Source of the DNA: Candidatus Poribacteria bacterium
GTDB taxonomy: Bacteria > Poribacteria > WGA-4E > PCPOR2b
Assembly: GCA_028819845.1 (NCBI GenBank)
Contig: JAPPKS010000012.1
Location: forward strand, 124,001-188,000
Reading direction: 5' to 3'
DNA length: 64,000 nt
This document shows, one piece after another, positions 32,538 through 40,915 of the stretch; the first letter of the stretch is position 1, and each line of letters starts with the position of its first letter. The notes under the pieces are model-generated. The model saw only the letters and a list, made by a program, of their open reading frames with translations, ran no database searches and had not been told where the DNA came from. Position numbers and translations under genes: made by a program.

Positions 32538-35500
32538 ATGAGATATTTGCTAATCCTAATTTCTGTGATGCTCCTTCTCACGTTTAGGCCCCCTAAGGCA
32601 GTCAGCCTGACTCCCCAGGAGATTTTCAAAAAAACGGCTGACGCAACCGTGCACCTAGCCAGATACAATTCCGAAGGAAAATTACTTCCCATTGGGAGCG
32701 GATTCTTCGTGCGACGGAATTATATCGCGACCAATTTCCACGTAATTGAAGGTGCCGCAGCCGTTGAATTAAGAGCGAAACTTGTCGATAAGAAAGGATG
32801 GTACGCAGTAGCGCGTATTCGAGCAGTTGATGAAAAACACGATTTGGCAATTTTACAAGTGTCGGTTCCAGGGGTCAATCCTGTTCCTTTAGTCGATAGT
32901 GATGCAGTGGAGATTGGCGATGCGGTCTTTGTCGTGGGTAATCCACAAGGTCTAGAGGGTACGTTTTCAATGGGAAACATTAGTCAGGTACGTGTAGTGG
33001 GTGACACAAAGCGACTTCAGTTCAATGCCCCAGTTGCTAAAGGCAACAGTGGGGGGCCTGTGCTAAACAAAGACGGCAATGTAATAGGTGTTGTTTCATT
33101 CAGATGGGGCGACTTCGAAATCCTCGACTTCTCAGCGAATCTCAACTTTGCCATTCCTTCAAACTACCTCAAGAATCTCTTGATACGAAAATTGGGGCCT
33201 GTGAAAACACCCACACGAAAAGCCACACCTCGCATAACAAAATCGCCAAAACCTGCTCAACCGAAACCGTCCACTCCGAAAACCACTCCCAAAAAACCCA
33301 AGCCCTCAAAATCCGTTCCGCCAAAACCGACCACACCAAAACCCACTCCGCAACAGATTGCAAAAAAAGCGTTAGCAGCTACGGTGCACATACGCATAGT
33401 AGATGCAAACGGTCACGCTTCAACCGGAAGTGGATTTTTTGTTCGACCGAACTATATCGCGACCAATTTCCACGTGATTGATGGCGCCGAGGGCGGAGTG
33501 GCAAAACGCGTTGGTCAGAAAACAGTGTACACCATTGAGGGTTTTACCTCAAAAGACAAAGCGCATGACCTGGCAATTTTGCGGGTGTCCGCACCGGGTG
33601 TCCAACCGCTTCCTCTGGGCGATAGTGACGCTGTTGAGATAGGCGATACCGTTTATGCTGCAGGCAATCCAGGACGGTTGGAAGGCACGTTTTCAGATGG
33701 TTTAATTAGTGCAATCCGACCAGAGGGTAACGAACTGATACACGGTAAATTGCTTCAGATGACAGCCCCTATTTCGGCAGGGAGTAGCGGCGGACCCGTC
33801 CTAAACGACAGTAGCGAAGTAATAGGAATATCTGTCGGATTTAGGGAGGGAGGACAGAATCTCAATTACGCTATTCCGGTGAATTATCTCAAGGCTATCA
33901 TAAATGGCCAATTGGACCCAACGACACCGACCACACCAAAAGTCACGCCCAAAAAACGTGACGCGCCAAAAGCTGTGCAACAAAAACCGTCCACACCAAT
34001 AGTCACGCCACAGAAACCTGAACCCTCAAAACCCGTAAACCCAAAACCGTCCACGCCAAATCCCACCCCGCAGAAACCCACGTCGCCAGAACTTGTAAAA
34101 CCAAAACCGATTACGCCAAGAGTCACTCCGAAACCCGCTCCCTCAATGCCAAAACCTTCGCGCCCGCTTTCACCAATGGAACTCCTTCAAAAAGGCATTA
34201 AACAGTATGAAGAGACACAATTCACCGAGGCGATAAAGTCCTTACAGTTGTCCTTAAGTGGGCTAGGGAATCCAGAACAGAGAGCTAAAGCTCATCTTTA
34301 CTTAGGGTGTTCGATATGGGGTTTAGGAGAAGATGTCAATCATGTGCACCGAGAATTTCAGGAGGCGCTCCGCCACAATCCAAATCAAACCTTACCGCCA
34401 AGGGTTGGGGATGATCACCCAGTCTTTCAGCCGCTACTAAAAAAGGTGCGTTCGAAATCAGTTGGCGAGCTGACGATTTCCTGTTCATTACCCCAGTCCG
34501 AAATTTGGATTCACGGAAACCTAATTGAAAGGAAAATGATAGGTACTGGAACAACCAACATTCGCCTATTCATGGGTGACTACATCGTAGAGGGAATTTA
34601 CGAAGACGTAACCCTAAAACAGACCGTTATCATAGAACCTAATGAGCATGAAATAGTCGTCCTCGAACTGCCAGCTATAATCAAGCATGACACCCCCGCA
34701 ACAGTATCAATTGGTGAAACGATTGCACTAACGTTGGATTTAATCTCCGCGGTCCGACCTACACTGGTTGAAGTTCGCTACAAATCCTACAACATGAAAG
34801 GGGACGAATTAGAACAAGGGGTCAAAGAAATGCGTTTGTGGAAGGAGCACGATGCCTCGTCGACACGCACTTACCAGGTGGAATTGTCATTACAAAAGGA
34901 CTTTGGAAAGCTTGACTATTTTTTCGCGGCTGATGAGACAAGGTCTCCAAAAACTGGTCATCATAGCGTCATGATTGAGGAGGACGAGGAAGATCGGAAG
35001 GAATTCGAAGGTGAACTCAAGGAAGTTGAAGACGGTTGGAAGCGGATTCACGACACCAATTCAGCGGCGCAGCTTAAGATAAAAGGTTTGTTGGATACAA
35101 CGGACGCAGCAATTATATCGGCCGAAAGTACCGCAAACATCCACAAATTTAACCGTCACGAGAACTCGGCATCTGAGCAAATACATGAATCGAGAGAATC
35201 GGTAGACGCATTAGTGGCAAGTGCACCAAACGACGAACTGGAACTCGACAACTTGTTAAATTCCTTATCCCATACGCAAGCTGATGCCAAGGCAAACAGA
35301 CGGCTCTCGGATTCCTTCATTGAAACATCGACGACTTCATTGAGAGAAAAAATAAAAGGTACAAAAGACTCGCTGAATGAGTTGGGTGACATGCAACTAC
35401 GCTTGGATAAACAGGAGAGCCAGTTGGCAAAGGTAGTAAAAGAGTTTAACCCGTTGCATCAGGGAATTTGGGCGGGTTTATGGTCAAATATGGTTTCGAA

Positions 35501-36029
35501 AGATGAACCTTCCACTTCTAATCTGGGTGGCGGTGATATGTTCAGCCTCATCTACCTGCGAGAGGGAATAACCCATCGAGCGCGCGGCGTACGACTCGAC
35601 TATTCCTACCAGAATCCAGTTAACACAAGCGTGATAGGTCTGTGGGAGCCAGATTTAGATTTAAGTAAATTAAGAGAAAATGCTATGGGGCTTACGCTCC
35701 TCGGCGGAATAGCAAGATACGGTATCAACTCCACGCAATCTGAAACGATTCAATCCACATCTGAAGAAGCAACACACACTACGCCCATAATCGGTGTTGG
35801 ACTGCAACTCTATCCAGAGCATAGGGTTACAGTGGATCTAAATGGTACAATCAAACTTCAGTCAGCAAATCACGGCGATCGTTTTATCAACAAACATCTT
35901 TATCACTACGAAGTAGGCGTTCGTCTTTACATTGCCCCGGCACTAAATTTGAGAGTAGGATATGGTCAATGGCACTTAGGTAATCGGGATGTTTCCGGTC
36001 TGCAGATTGGCCTAGGCGCTCTATTCTGA
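32538..36029 (+). CDS. Double trypsin-like protease - TPR - PEGA - helical - outer-membrane barrel protein
   Basis: An 1163-residue protein with a signal peptide (1-22). Two S1C (HtrA-like) protease domains follow. The first (about 25-218) has His68, Asp102 and Ser171 in ATNFHVI, KHDLAIL and GNSGGPV. The second (about 272-457) has His312, Asp344 and Ser417. There are no PDZ domains. Pro/Lys/Thr-rich linkers fill 222-272 and 459-545. Then come a TPR-like stretch (548-615), a PEGA-like beta domain (643-713), an Ig-like domain (718-812), a long helical, probably coiled-coil region (815-968), and a beta-rich end (971-1163) finishing in GALF, as outer-membrane barrels do. A likely topology is barrel in the outer membrane with the rest in the periplasm or at the surface. 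Its closest relative is the gene at 36923. Confidence 0.85.
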   Translation: MRYLLILISVMLLLTFRPPKAVSLTPQEIFKKTADATVHLARYNSEGKLLPIGSGFFVRRNYIATNFHVIEGAAAVELRAKLVDKKGWYAVARIRAVDEKHDLAILQVSVPGVNPVPLVDSDAVEIGDAVFVVGNPQGLEGTFSMGNISQVRVVGDTKRLQFNAPVAKGNSGGPVLNKDGNVIGVVSFRWGDFEILDFSANLNFAIPSNYLKNLLIRKLGPVKTPTRKATPRITKSPKPAQPKPSTPKTTPKKPKPSKSVPPKPTTPKPTPQQIAKKALAATVHIRIVDANGHASTGSGFFVRPNYIATNFHVIDGAEGGVAKRVGQKTVYTIEGFTSKDKAHDLAILRVSAPGVQPLPLGDSDAVEIGDTVYAAGNPGRLEGTFSDGLISAIRPEGNELIHGKLLQMTAPISAGSSGGPVLNDSSEVIGISVGFREGGQNLNYAIPVNYLKAIINGQLDPTTPTTPKVTPKKRDAPKAVQQKPSTPIVTPQKPEPSKPVNPKPSTPNPTPQKPTSPELVKPKPITPRVTPKPAPSMPKPSRPLSPMELLQKGIKQYEETQFTEAIKSLQLSLSGLGNPEQRAKAHLYLGCSIWGLGEDVNHVHREFQEALRHNPNQTLPPRVGDDHPVFQPLLKKVRSKSVGELTISCSLPQSEIWIHGNLIERKMIGTGTTNIRLFMGDYIVEGIYEDVTLKQTVIIEPNEHEIVVLELPAIIKHDTPATVSIGETIALTLDLISAVRPTLVEVRYKSYNMKGDELEQGVKEMRLWKEHDASSTRTYQVELSLQKDFGKLDYFFAADETRSPKTGHHSVMIEEDEEDRKEFEGELKEVEDGWKRIHDTNSAAQLKIKGLLDTTDAAIISAESTANIHKFNRHENSASEQIHESRESVDALVASAPNDELELDNLLNSLSHTQADAKANRRLSDSFIETSTTSLREKIKGTKDSLNELGDMQLRLDKQESQLAKVVKEFNPLHQGIWAGLWSNMVSKDEPSTSNLGGGDMFSLIYLREGITHRARGVRLDYSYQNPVNTSVIGLWEPDLDLSKLRENAMGLTLLGGIARYGINSTQSETIQSTSEEATHTTPIIGVGLQLYPEHRVTVDLNGTIKLQSANHGDRFINKHLYHYEVGVRLYIAPALNLRVGYGQWHLGNRDVSGLQIGLGALF

Positions 36030-36467
36030 ACAACGTGCAATTGAAACACCCGACTTTAACTAGATTAGAACCATAAATGTCACCGTATAGGGTGGTTGAA
36101 TGGTAAAATTGAATATCAATCAAGGTTAACCTGACTGCTGTTCGTGACCGTCACTGTTGCATAAAATTTATTGCTAACAGAACTCCAAACTTTGCCAATG
36201 ACAGTAAATTGCTAGGTTTCAGGAAATAGAAAATTTCAAGTATCATCGCACTCTGCAATTGAATCATAATGCTCGAAACTTTCATGTGCGCTTTTTAAAC
36301 CAATTAGAATCAAATTAGCGCCTAATCGGTTTAGCTCCTTATCCTCGTTAATTGTAGTCACCAACTGCTGTCGTTCATCAACGTCCATTTTCTTGCATAT
36401 TCCCGATGCAAGTCGCAACCCTACATCAAAATAAAACCAACTCTAATTTCGCAAGGGAGATTACGAT
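36030..36467. other. Intergenic stretch between the two barrel-protease loci
   Basis: These 438 bp hold no recognisable RNA or repeat. A minus-strand ORF (36418-36236, 60 codons, TTG start, acidic helical product with DVDERQQLVTTINEDKEL) has protein-like composition but no known relatives I can name and a poor RBS. It is a weak small-gene candidate. Confidence 0.3.
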
Positions 36468-36926
36468 TTGACTAGGCGTGATTGGGCACTTCTTGCTGTT
36501 GGGATTTTCGTTATTGTCGTAATTATAATCTCTATAGTTGCTGTTAAATCTTGTGGGCGAACCCCTCCCGAGACTCCGCCACCCAAAACCGACGCGGCTA
36601 CGATCACACCAAAGCCCGCATCTGCGAAACCACCTGTGGTATCACCTGCGACTTTGAACGTATCAGTTTCAATCAACGCTGTCCCGTGGGCAGAGGTTTT
36701 CATAAAAACCCCTGGAACAAACAGATTCGTAAAACCGGAAACGAAATTCTTCAAAATCAGACCTGAACCCAATGGAACTGATTCCAACATCACGCCAATA
36801 CGGGGTGAATTAAACGTACCTGCCGGTACGGAAATCAAATTGATTTATGAAGGTAAAGAGGAAACCTTCCCTTACGAGTCTTGGAAGGAAACGAAGTCGA
36901 TATCGCATGATTTTCTGGAGCGATGA
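36468..36926 (+). CDS. Membrane-anchored PEGA-like domain protein
   Basis: A 152-residue protein with one N-terminal membrane helix (about residues 6-29), a Pro-rich spacer (32-60) and a beta-rich domain with VSINAVPWAEVFIKTPG and a GELNVPAGTEIKLIYEG strand pair, like PEGA domains. The start is TTG at 36468 with AGGGAGA seven bases before it. Its TGA overlaps the ATG of the following protease-barrel gene (ATGA at 36923-36926), so the two are translationally coupled and probably work together. A periplasmic domain held at the inner membrane could contact a PEGA-bearing partner; that is inference. Confidence 0.75.
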   Translation: MTRRDWALLAVGIFVIVVIIISIVAVKSCGRTPPETPPPKTDAATITPKPASAKPPVVSPATLNVSVSINAVPWAEVFIKTPGTNRFVKPETKFFKIRPEPNGTDSNITPIRGELNVPAGTEIKLIYEGKEETFPYESWKETKSISHDFLER

Positions 36927-39394
36927 CGTATAGTTCAAAGGACGCCGTTAGTAAATTTCTTGTGACACCCAAGATGAGATTATCCGTCGATTTCAGGATT
37001 TTGATGCTTTTAGTGGTCTGTAGAATCGCCGTTGCAGATACGCCAACTCCCGAACAGATTGCTAAAAGCGCACTAGACGCTACCGTGCTAATTACTATGA
37101 TAGACTCCAGTGGCAAGGTGGCGTCGCGAGGCAGCGGATTCTTCGTGCAACGGAATCTGATTGCAACAAATTTCCATCTGATTAACGGACTGACAAGAGG
37201 TGGTGCACGAAATGTCGGTCAGGAAACGACTTACCCCGTAGTTAAAATTAGCGTAAAGGATGAAAAACACGATCTAGCAATTTTACAGGTGTCGGCACCC
37301 GGAATTGAACCTCTTCCGATTGGCGACAGTGAGTTAGTCGTGGTGGGAGATCGCATTTATGTAGTTGGCAATCCACTAGGTGTACTTGAAGGCACTTTCT
37401 CTGATGGGATTATCAGTGCGATTCGAGAGGTGGATGGCGTAAAGCTATTTCAAGTTTCTGCCCCAATTTTAGAGGGTAACAGCGGCGGTCCAGTGCTAAA
37501 CGCCCAAGGCGAAGTTATAGGCGTTTCACAGGGAATCATCCCAGCCGGAGAAAACCTCAATTTTGCAATTCATTCAATCAATCTTAAAGCGCTCGTCAAT
37601 CAATTGGGACAAAAGACGCTTCAAAGCGGTATTGAACTATATGAAGCCTCTCAATTTGAGGAGGCAATGAAATCTCTGGAGTCCGCATTGAACGTACTTT
37701 CCGACCCGCTAAAGCGCGCCATAGCCCATCTGTACCTTGGGTGTTCTAAACGAGGGTTTGGCGAATCCGATCGCAGCGTGCGTGCGGAGTTTCGAGAAGC
37801 GCTTCGCCACAATCCAAATCAAGCATTGCCACCGCGGATAGGAGCAGATCACCCGGTTTTTAAACTGCTGCTTGAAAAAGTTCGCTCTGAGTCAACGGGG
37901 GAGTTGACAGTTACCTGTTCACTTCTCCAAACCGAAATCTGGATTGACGGGAACGATATTGACAGGAAATTGATAGGCACCGGAACTTCTACCGTCCGAC
38001 TATTTGTGGGCGGCTACATCGCGGAGGGGGTTTTGCAAGGAGTTTCCCAAAAGGAATCTTTCACTATAATTCCTGGTGGGCACAAGATAATCTATTTGGA
38101 ACTGCCGCCAATTTTAAGACATAAACCCCCTGGTAGAACGCTCGTCGGTGAGATTATCCCTCTTTCTTTGGATATAATCAGCCGCGATAAGCCAAATCAT
38201 GTTCAGATTCACTTCATCATCTACGACAGAAACGGGCAAGAAATAAACCGGGGATATCAGGATATGCTTCTGCAGAACGAGCAACCCACGGAGTCCACAT
38301 GGATTTACCGATCGGATTTGCCACCGCAATACACTGTTGGTAAAATGTCATATTTCATCGTGGCTGATGAAGCTAGGTCCCCGAAAGAGCAATACCATGA
38401 AATTGCAATTGTAGACAAAAATTTCCCAGCAATCGAACTGCTAGAACCGCTTGAAGCCGCCGAATTCATGGCCGACCAACCCATTTCGGTTCGAGCAAGA
38501 GTAACTGATAACACCGCTGTAAATGAGGTTCGTATTCATTATGCTTTCTCGCGTTCAGGCGGTTCAAAACCCTCTGAGGTGACACCATCACAGCCCCTGG
38601 AGAGAGAAACTTCTGACGACATATATGTTGGACAAATTCCGGCTCAACAGAGCGGCGCTGGGGCCATCTGGTATTATTTGACCGCGACCGATGAAGAAAA
38701 AAACGAGAGTAAGTCCGATGAAAGAAGGATAGAAATTGTAGTTACAGGCGGAAAACTCCCCTCTCCTAAACCGAAAGATTCGAAAGATTACCATACCAAA
38801 TTTCCATTTCGCCAAGGGATATGGGTGAGTCATGGATGGTCAGATAACATTCCTGATGATGGCGAGTATGATTCCCAATGGGATAGAGGTGATATACTCA
38901 GTTTCAGTTACTTGAGTGAAGGCAGAGGCTATCGGACGCTTGGGGTACAACTGGATTATTCATACCACATTCCTGCCAATACTAGCGCGGCGGTGCAGTG
39001 GTGGCCGGCGATGACACAAGATTCTGTCGGGTTTGCGTTATTGGGGGGAGTGGCGCGATACAGCGATGACGACTCTGGTAGCACTCGGTCAAGTTGGGCC
39101 GGCGGAGATGCCTCAGATGAGTCGCATCATATTACACCGTTTCTCGGTGCAAGTTTGAAATTCTACCCTCTGCATACAGTCGCAGTTGACGGCGCAATTT
39201 CGGCTAAACTTAAGCCGATGGACACATCTTCTAGCGAGGAATCCGATTCTTTCGCGAGATATCTACACCACTACGAATTTGGTACTCGGATTTACATTAC
39301 CCCCGCGTTGAATCTGAAACTCAGCTACGGAAAATGGTTTTTAGGAGATCGTGGAAACGCAACTGTACAGATCGGGCTAGGGGTTACCTTCTAA
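36923..39394 (+). CDS. Trypsin-like protease - TPR - PEGA - Ig-like - outer-membrane barrel protein
   Basis: An 823-residue paralogue of the protein at 32538 with a single protease domain (about 40-228: His84, Asp117, Ser187 in ATNFHLI, KHDLAIL, GNSGGPV). It continues with a TPR-like part (232-300), a PEGA-like domain (325-395) nearly collinear with the paralogue, Ig-like domains (405-495 and 503-608), and a beta-rich C-terminal region (628-823) ending in GVTF. Signal sequence: the ATG at 36923 gives a 17-residue pre-extension, and an ATG at 36974 (MRLSVDF) gives a standard signal peptide. The long helical region of the paralogue is replaced here by a second Ig-like domain. The coupled upstream gene is the PEGA membrane protein. 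Confidence 0.85.
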   Translation: MTYSSKDAVSKFLVTPKMRLSVDFRILMLLVVCRIAVADTPTPEQIAKSALDATVLITMIDSSGKVASRGSGFFVQRNLIATNFHLINGLTRGGARNVGQETTYPVVKISVKDEKHDLAILQVSAPGIEPLPIGDSELVVVGDRIYVVGNPLGVLEGTFSDGIISAIREVDGVKLFQVSAPILEGNSGGPVLNAQGEVIGVSQGIIPAGENLNFAIHSINLKALVNQLGQKTLQSGIELYEASQFEEAMKSLESALNVLSDPLKRAIAHLYLGCSKRGFGESDRSVRAEFREALRHNPNQALPPRIGADHPVFKLLLEKVRSESTGELTVTCSLLQTEIWIDGNDIDRKLIGTGTSTVRLFVGGYIAEGVLQGVSQKESFTIIPGGHKIIYLELPPILRHKPPGRTLVGEIIPLSLDIISRDKPNHVQIHFIIYDRNGQEINRGYQDMLLQNEQPTESTWIYRSDLPPQYTVGKMSYFIVADEARSPKEQYHEIAIVDKNFPAIELLEPLEAAEFMADQPISVRARVTDNTAVNEVRIHYAFSRSGGSKPSEVTPSQPLERETSDDIYVGQIPAQQSGAGAIWYYLTATDEEKNESKSDERRIEIVVTGGKLPSPKPKDSKDYHTKFPFRQGIWVSHGWSDNIPDDGEYDSQWDRGDILSFSYLSEGRGYRTLGVQLDYSYHIPANTSAAVQWWPAMTQDSVGFALLGGVARYSDDDSGSTRSSWAGGDASDESHHITPFLGASLKFYPLHTVAVDGAISAKLKPMDTSSSEESDSFARYLHHYEFGTRIYITPALNLKLSYGKWFLGDRGNATVQIGLGVTF

Positions 39395-39493: not shown

Positions 39494-40240
39494 TTAGCGG
39501 AAGGTTAAGCCAATTCCAAAGGTAGTATCCGAATGGTCGAACGAGAATGAAAACGCGCCGTGGGCGATAACAGTGGAAGATAAGTGAAGTTCCATTCCAA
39601 TTTGGGCGCCTGTACTGCCTTCATCTTCGCTATCGTCAAAATTGTGTCGTTTATCAGTAACCGTTGTCCATATATGGGTGTACGAAATCCCAAAATACGG
39701 CGTCAACCTCATCCCGGATTCGGTTACTATGCGCTTTAAAAGCCCGCCCATACCGGTCAGCCCCAGAGCGCGTGCGCTCTCACGTGTCTCTGATCCAACA
39801 ACCTCGTTGGCGAAACTAGCGCCGCCTTCAATTGTGAGAAAGGTATCAAAACCCGTTTGTTGCAACGGGTCCATATACTGGATGCTTAGTCAAATTGAAG
39901 GTAATGGAGGTATTTCGACCCCAGGTCTAAAATCCACAGTGTCGTCGTCAACAAATCGCATACCGCCAGCACCTTGGACTTTTGCCCCAAAATCAATTCC
40001 GAATTCGAGTGCGTCGCTGACTATCGGAGTATTCTCCATAAATTGGAGGCCGAACCCGTAAGCACTCTCATCTTTCCCCAACTTCAGGAAACTGAGTTGG
40101 CTATGGGCGGCAACCGGATACACTAAACCAATAAGGAATGTAGCGGTAAGCAATAGACAGAAAACGGTGTACTCGTATCCTTTGACAGGGAATTGTTTTC
40201 GCGCCGGGCGTCGGCATTTCTTACTATCCTTGTCTTTCAT
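39494..40240 (-). pseudogene. Predicted outer-membrane beta-barrel protein interrupted by an in-frame TGA
   Basis: One frame from ATG 40240 to the stop at 39494 encodes 248 positions, with a signal peptide (hydrophobic about 28-43, ending VAAHS), alternating beta strands, and a C-terminus in GIGLTFR. Codon 117, at 39890-39892, is TGA, and coding quality is equal on both sides with no frame change. It may be a fresh nonsense mutation, a sequencing error (TGG or CGA to TGA), or recoding. A 7 bp perfect hairpin with a 6-base loop follows 19 bases after the TGA (39851-39870). It belongs to the local group of barrel genes. Confidence 0.65.
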
Positions 40241-40417: not shown

Positions 40418-40915
40418 GTGAATTTAAATATGATTAAACTTGTTGGAGTGCTTCTAGCGGTTGTGGCTATAGCCGTTGTCATGCTTATTTTCACCGTCAC
40501 CCTTATACACAGCGACTCCTTTGTACGTCCCACTTCATCTGAGTTCGAAAGTGTTGAACTTGATACGACAGAACAATCGCCAAATAATCTAGGTTTGTCT
40601 ACCGAAGTTGACTTTTTGTTTGAGAGACCTAGATGGTTGCCGGGTGGGGTGACTCAAATTATACCAACTGTCGGGGTGAATTTTGGGTTCATGCGACCGA
40701 TCGCATCTGGGTATGCGTTTGGAAGGTCATTCAAGGTCGGTACGAGTGCAACACTTTCCGATGAAGAGTTAGGTTCTACCTCAAAACATCGCATTTCCTT
40801 TGAATCAGGCATGCGCGTTTACCTATCCCCTACGCAGTATGTGTTGATTACTTGCGGAAGACGGTATGACAAAGATAGCGTCACGACAAACTTTAAGACG
40901 GCGTTGCGGCTTTAA
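40418..40915 (+). CDS. Small envelope protein with N-terminal helix and beta-rich domain
   Basis: A 165-residue protein starting at GTG 40418 behind AGGTG; an ATG four codons later is an alternative. One membrane helix (about residues 7-28) precedes a beta-rich part with IIPTVGVNFGFMRPI and RISFESGMRVYLSP, which read like barrel strands similar in style to the neighbouring barrel genes. A domain of about 130 residues could supply only a small barrel or part of one. No family recognised. It is divergent from the interrupted barrel gene, 177 bp apart. Confidence 0.55.
   Translation: MNLNMIKLVGVLLAVVAIAVVMLIFTVTLIHSDSFVRPTSSEFESVELDTTEQSPNNLGLSTEVDFLFERPRWLPGGVTQIIPTVGVNFGFMRPIASGYAFGRSFKVGTSATLSDEELGSTSKHRISFESGMRVYLSPTQYVLITCGRRYDKDSVTTNFKTALRL

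Follow-up and report, generated by a model that had tools for sequence, protein, structure and literature searches.

The window analysed here is a 64,000-nucleotide stretch of DNA from a Candidatus Poribacteria bacterium. Poribacteria are best known from marine sponges; they are mostly uncultured and often sponge-associated, and their envelope biology is barely known. The host genome (G000) is 4.6 Mb in size and carries the locus on contig C26. The list of open reading frames showed three genes in the same direction at this locus, all on the forward strand. The first gene, P1 (32538..36029), encodes a protein of 1163 aa with an N-terminal hydrophobic signal-like stretch, two S1C trypsin domains, a TPR, PEGA-like and Ig module, a helical stretch and a barrel, as assigned by Pfam and alignments. 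The last gene, P2 (36923..39394), encodes 823 aa, in which Pfam and the reading frame indicated a hydrophobic signal-like stretch, one S1C trypsin domain, TPR, PEGA-like and two Ig domains, and a barrel. The small gene between them (36468..36926, 152 aa) encodes a transmembrane helix, a proline-rich linker and a PEGA-like domain, and its stop codon and the ATG of P2 overlap by 4 bases. This third gene was absent from the initial annotation of the same stretch. The domains, triads and barrel, the linkage of the small partner gene and the exchange of heads reported here were all computed.

Pfam matched Trypsin_2 in two stretches of P1 (E=2.3e-58) and in P2 (E=9.3e-29), and alignment placed an intact His-Asp-Ser triad in each of the three S1C domains: H68, D102 and S171 in the first domain of P1 (32694..33092, aa 53-185), H312, D344 and S417 in the second (33417..33899, aa 294-454), and H85, D117 and S187 in that of P2 (37130..37525, aa 70-201). 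Trypsin-like domains with intact triads had been claimed for both proteins by the initial annotation, which also called them HtrA-like and PDZ-free; both descriptions hold, the Pfam scan having given no PDZ match in P1 or P2. The two proteins share Trypsin_2, an export signal, the triad and the GNSGG/GSSGG motif with HtrA/Deg proteases (S1C), but differ from them in lacking PDZ, in being tethered by a barrel and in scoring far under the cut-off of the Do family (TIGR02037; 203.3 bits for P1 and 93.9 bits for P2 against 416.2). DegP-type proteases with apparent PDZ regions (L009-L011) are also kept in the host genome, and therefore P1 and P2 are not its housekeeping copies. Near relatives include S1C proteases of Poribacteria that lack PDZ and in many cases carry TPR or WD40 repeats in the same chain. 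This PDZ-free type is expanded across the Poribacteria lineage, where several of its members (L097, L099, L102, L103, L104) are fused to WD40 or to long TPR arrays. Since Poribacteria have many S1C domains without PDZ, which elsewhere are joined to TPR or WD40 repeats, the head is a mobile part.

Behind its protease domain, P2 carries TPR helices (37613..37897, about aa 231-325), a small beta domain (37895..38098, about aa 325-392) and two Ig-like domains (38111..38740, about aa 397-606), the second of which is Big_7-like. The AlphaFold2 models cover two parts of P2, the barrel and the stalk. The stalk model, for which residues 231-627 were aligned with eight relatives, folded in this order with a mean pLDDT of 84.7; a profile match to TPR structures agreed for the helices, and Pfam for the Ig-like domains. 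Pfam PEGA (PF08308) did not directly match P1, P2 or the partner. However, the stalk profile (A3) matched TPR+PEGA proteins of other Poribacteria families, where Pfam PEGA reaches E=4e-73, and the beta domain is named PEGA-like on that ground. Foldseek matches to the stalk model were for the most part unspecific Ig proteins, such as complement C3/C5, and gave no information beyond the fold. In P1, the TPR, PEGA-like and first Ig domains occupy 34179..34967 (about aa 548-810; alignments A2 and A3, weak TPR-type match), and the place of the second Ig is taken by a helical, probably coiled-coil, linker (34974..35447, about aa 813-970), as suggested by a weak SMC-like match and by its sequence. 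Thus, the earlier claim of TPR, PEGA-like and Ig parts in both proteins stands for the modules as such, but the second Ig is found in P2 only.

The C-terminal region of P2 (38804..39391, aa 628-823), which ends in QIGLGVTF, was modelled by AlphaFold2 as a barrel of ten strands over ~195 residues with mean pLDDT 74.9 and pTM 0.70. The 50 PDB matches listed by Foldseek were outer membrane barrels, apart from a small number of transmembrane barrels that had been engineered or designed, and included OmpA, NanC, Ail, OmpG, OmpT, Pla, EstA and the NalP translocator; no soluble protein was among them. Foldseek probabilities among these matches were 0.96-1.00, but TM-scores were moderate (about 0.4-0.5) with high rmsd, and hence the strand count and the closure of the barrel are provisional. 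When the C-terminal regions of 12 family members were searched for domains, each of them matched PF13505 (OMP_b-brl), with 2.5e-10 as the best E; one of them is P1, whose barrel (35451..36026, aa 972-1163; E=0.0014, family alignment A1) ends in QIGLGALF. The PDB sequence search with the barrel profile gave no match even at E=5. The C-terminal Q-x-G-x-G-x-x-F beta-signal was invariant across the aligned barrel family, and its pattern occurred in P1 and P2 only among the 261 open reading frames of at least 60 aa in the window. Hydrophobic strand alternation as strong as that of the P2 barrel arose in 23 of 5000 shuffles. Five Omp85 genes in the host genome indicate that barrel-assembly proteins are present. 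P1 and P2 thus show the up-and-down barrel and the C-terminal beta-signal of outer membrane beta-barrels, and the predicted C-terminal barrel ending in Phe, which the initial annotation had put forward, was borne out. Were this part instead a soluble beta domain, the protein would be a free periplasmic or secreted protease. The moderate TM-scores of the P2 model agree with that, as does the fact that P1 and P2 taken alone fall under the Pfam cut-off for OMP_b-brl, although a full-length homologue (L044) passes it (36.4 bits against the curated 28.7). We rejected a soluble domain as highly improbable on the strength of the family-wide PF13505 matches, the invariant beta-signal, the strand alternation and the structural matches.

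In the model of the P2 barrel, the loops on the side far from the termini are of 14, 6, 20, 18 and 2 residues and those on the side of the termini of 5, 7, 2 and 4; length variation between relatives falls mostly in three of the long far-side loops. Because the strand number is even and the far-side loops are longer and more variable, both termini most likely face the periplasm. This bears on whether the barrel might export the N-terminal protease to the cell surface, as in an autotransporter. The translocator of type V autotransporters (PF03797) has 12 strands and about 270-300 residues. P1 and P2 resemble such proteins (S6, S8) in the order of signal peptide, protease passenger and C-terminal barrel ending in Phe, and the Foldseek matches to the P2 barrel include EstA and the translocator of NalP. 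Unlike them, P1 and P2 have a shorter barrel of ~195 residues and ten predicted strands, did not match PF03797 in the Pfam scan, and bear a passenger of TPR, PEGA-like and Ig parts and not a beta-helix; the inner-membrane partner, too, suits a periplasmic site better. The surface protease of autotransporter kind was rejected for its mismatch in barrel size, strand number and PF03797, and we regard it as quite improbable. The proteins had earlier been judged not to follow the known autotransporter pattern, which agrees with these results, and to be possibly a periplasmic or a surface system. The periplasmic site is now better supported than the surface, because the strands are even in number, the termini lie on the side of the short turns and ten strands make a barrel too narrow for a folded passenger.

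Of 85 Poribacteria genomes searched with the barrel profile, 10 contained the barrel, in 13 copies altogether, whereas about 60 genomes of other phyla gave no match. In all 13, the barrel was C-terminal to the TPR module. A short-pattern scan of GTDB genome contigs showed at least six loci, all in Poribacteria. The heads on these barrels were of two kinds. Ten copies carried S1C domains, one in P2, G008a, G005, G007 and G004 and two in P1, G008b, G006, G009b and G012. In the other three (G044, G059 and G009a), the head was a cysteine domain of transglutaminase-like type; it contains GDCED as well as a conserved His, and its Pfam match was weak (E 0.006-0.095). One cysteine-type head also weakly matched (E=0.0017) the 'periplasmic protein' structure 4fgo, which we take to be that of LapG. 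Catalytic residues were retained in 13 of the 15 S1C domains, and Cys and His in each of the three transglutaminase-like heads. In G009b and G012, the second S1C domain has RNLA and GSAGG and has lost its catalytic Asp and Ser, so that some of the heads are inactive. A tree of the chassis (TPR, PEGA-like and barrel) required a minimum of two changes of head, given its well-supported branches; a tree of the barrel only preferred the same two changes without forcing them. The exchangeability of the heads suggests that the place of proteolysis, at this envelope site, is what selection keeps. P1 and P2 as a recent tandem duplication was not supported, as P2 clustered on the chassis tree with the G009 and G012 copies (95/92), apart from P1. 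The chassis gene of G059 (L046:3375-6249, forward strand) is split into two reading frames of 621 aa and 277 aa, with the break between Ig-like domains, and this copy may be broken or misassembled.

The partner has a single N-terminal transmembrane helix followed by the proline-rich linker and the PEGA-like domain. At every locus, it was found a short way upstream of the barrel gene or gene pair; P1 is without a partner gene of its own. The partner profile matched the same 10 of 85 Poribacteria genomes as the barrel and no others in the phylum, and gave one weak match outside it, in another phylum. One partner copy, in G009, is joined to DUF805, a family of integral membrane proteins (E=2e-18), and this favours placing the partner in the inner membrane. 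That the partner and the barrel protein work jointly is best supported by their strict linkage; the two probably make contact, as judged from gene order and co-occurrence. In G009b and G012, a ~510-aa protein is encoded on the reverse strand between the partner and the protease gene (L048:7871-9421 and L049:7041-8570); it has several similar SH3/LSM-like repeats as well as hydrophobic stretches.

A stalk held by a barrel has precedents. In OmpM and SlpA, a C-terminal outer membrane barrel holds a periplasmic stalk, and some SlpA-like proteins of Deinococcus have a small 8-strand OmpA-like barrel (PMC10628300, PMC9388160). P1 and P2 share with these an N-terminal region or stalk of further domains, predicted here and presumably periplasmic, ahead of a C-terminal outer membrane barrel with a beta-signal. 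However, OmpM and SlpA carry SLH wall-binding domains and no enzyme, whereas in P1 and P2 the TPR, PEGA-like and Ig parts bear protease heads, and a partner gene goes with them; Pfam found no SLH match in any member scanned. One might then suppose that P1 and P2 are mainly an envelope tether, in which barrel and stalk join the outer membrane to the inner membrane or the cell wall, with a secondary or regulatory role for the protease head. The OmpM/SlpA layout (PMC10628300, PMC9388160), the inner-membrane partner at every locus, the helical linker of P1 and the one dead head domain in two genomes (G009b, G012) would fit. We nevertheless think this unlikely, as occurrence in 10 of 85 Poribacteria genomes is too rare for a general tether, neither SLH nor an OmpA-type wall-binding domain was found by Pfam in the members scanned, and the heads have largely retained their catalytic residues.

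LapG is soluble and has neither a barrel nor TPR. It is reported to be a transglutaminase-like protease of the periplasm, belonging to a system whose regulator sits in the inner membrane (PMC3032545). Some P1/P2-type loci resemble LapG/LapD in combining a transglutaminase-like cysteine head with an inner-membrane partner, but differ in that GGDEF/EAL is absent from the partner and serine-type heads are in the majority. Literature searches on the architecture, on PEGA with proteases and on Trypsin_2 with OMP_b-brl gave nothing relevant, subscription papers and InterPro architecture tables being outside their scope, and no description of a protease on a periplasmic barrel tether was found in the literature searched. 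In the 2014 paper on single-cell genomes of Poribacteria, none of the words trypsin, HtrA, protease, serine and barrel occurs in the main text (PMC3909097). Within that scope, the earlier view of the architecture as new-looking holds. What is new is the fusion of protease heads to a barrel tether, the tether itself having precedents in OmpM and SlpA. The initial annotation was right about the fusion, but overlooked the partner gene that is present throughout, the replacement of serine by cysteine-type heads in relatives, and these precedents.

The P1/P2 loci look like a modular membrane-tethered protease system that is not described in the literature searched. We consider it likely that P1 and P2 are not autotransporters but periplasmic proteases tethered to the outer membrane on its inner face, and that they probably act together with a partner in the inner membrane. 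For such a system, we infer the topology, partner contact, activity and substrates as follows. P1 and P2 would be exported via Sec, and the BAM machinery would insert their small C-terminal barrels, which would serve as anchors and not as secretion pores and so keep the remaining chain in the periplasm. The Ig, PEGA-like and TPR parts would form a stalk with binding surfaces, holding the protease domain or domains off the outer membrane. The partner would be held in the inner membrane with its PEGA-like domain towards the periplasm, where this domain would probably meet the stalk, making an envelope bridge or a gate for the protease. The protease may process proteins of the envelope or the surface locally, or control their quality. 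More tentatively, the loci could represent a two-gene trans-envelope proteolysis module, in which a conserved outer membrane chassis and a dedicated inner-membrane partner carry unrelated heads and a signal at the inner membrane gates the cutting of envelope or surface proteins; we hold this to be possible rather than probable. To our knowledge, envelope proteases are soluble, bound to the inner membrane, lipid-anchored, themselves a barrel (OmpT) or exported by a barrel (autotransporters). If the proposed reading is true, a protease tethered on the periplasmic side of a barrel, with serine and cysteine heads that can be exchanged and an inner-membrane partner that stays the same, would add another means of placing proteolysis in the envelope, and one offered by a small, testable gene pair from Poribacteria.

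Next to P2, on the reverse strand (39494-40240), lies an outer-membrane-barrel-like gene that is separate from P1 and P2. An in-frame stop breaks its reading frame, and weak matches to the Autotransporter beta-domain and OMP_b-brl fall in its second half. Further on, 40418-40915 of the forward strand encodes a protein of 165 aa with an N-terminal transmembrane stretch and a beta-rich, barrel-like remainder, which had no Pfam or NCBIfam match. The neighbours of the module differ between the window and several relatives (L041-L043, L069 flanks), in which it stands beside an adenylosuccinate-lyase-like gene and, in some, also adjoins a subtilase (S8)-like gene.
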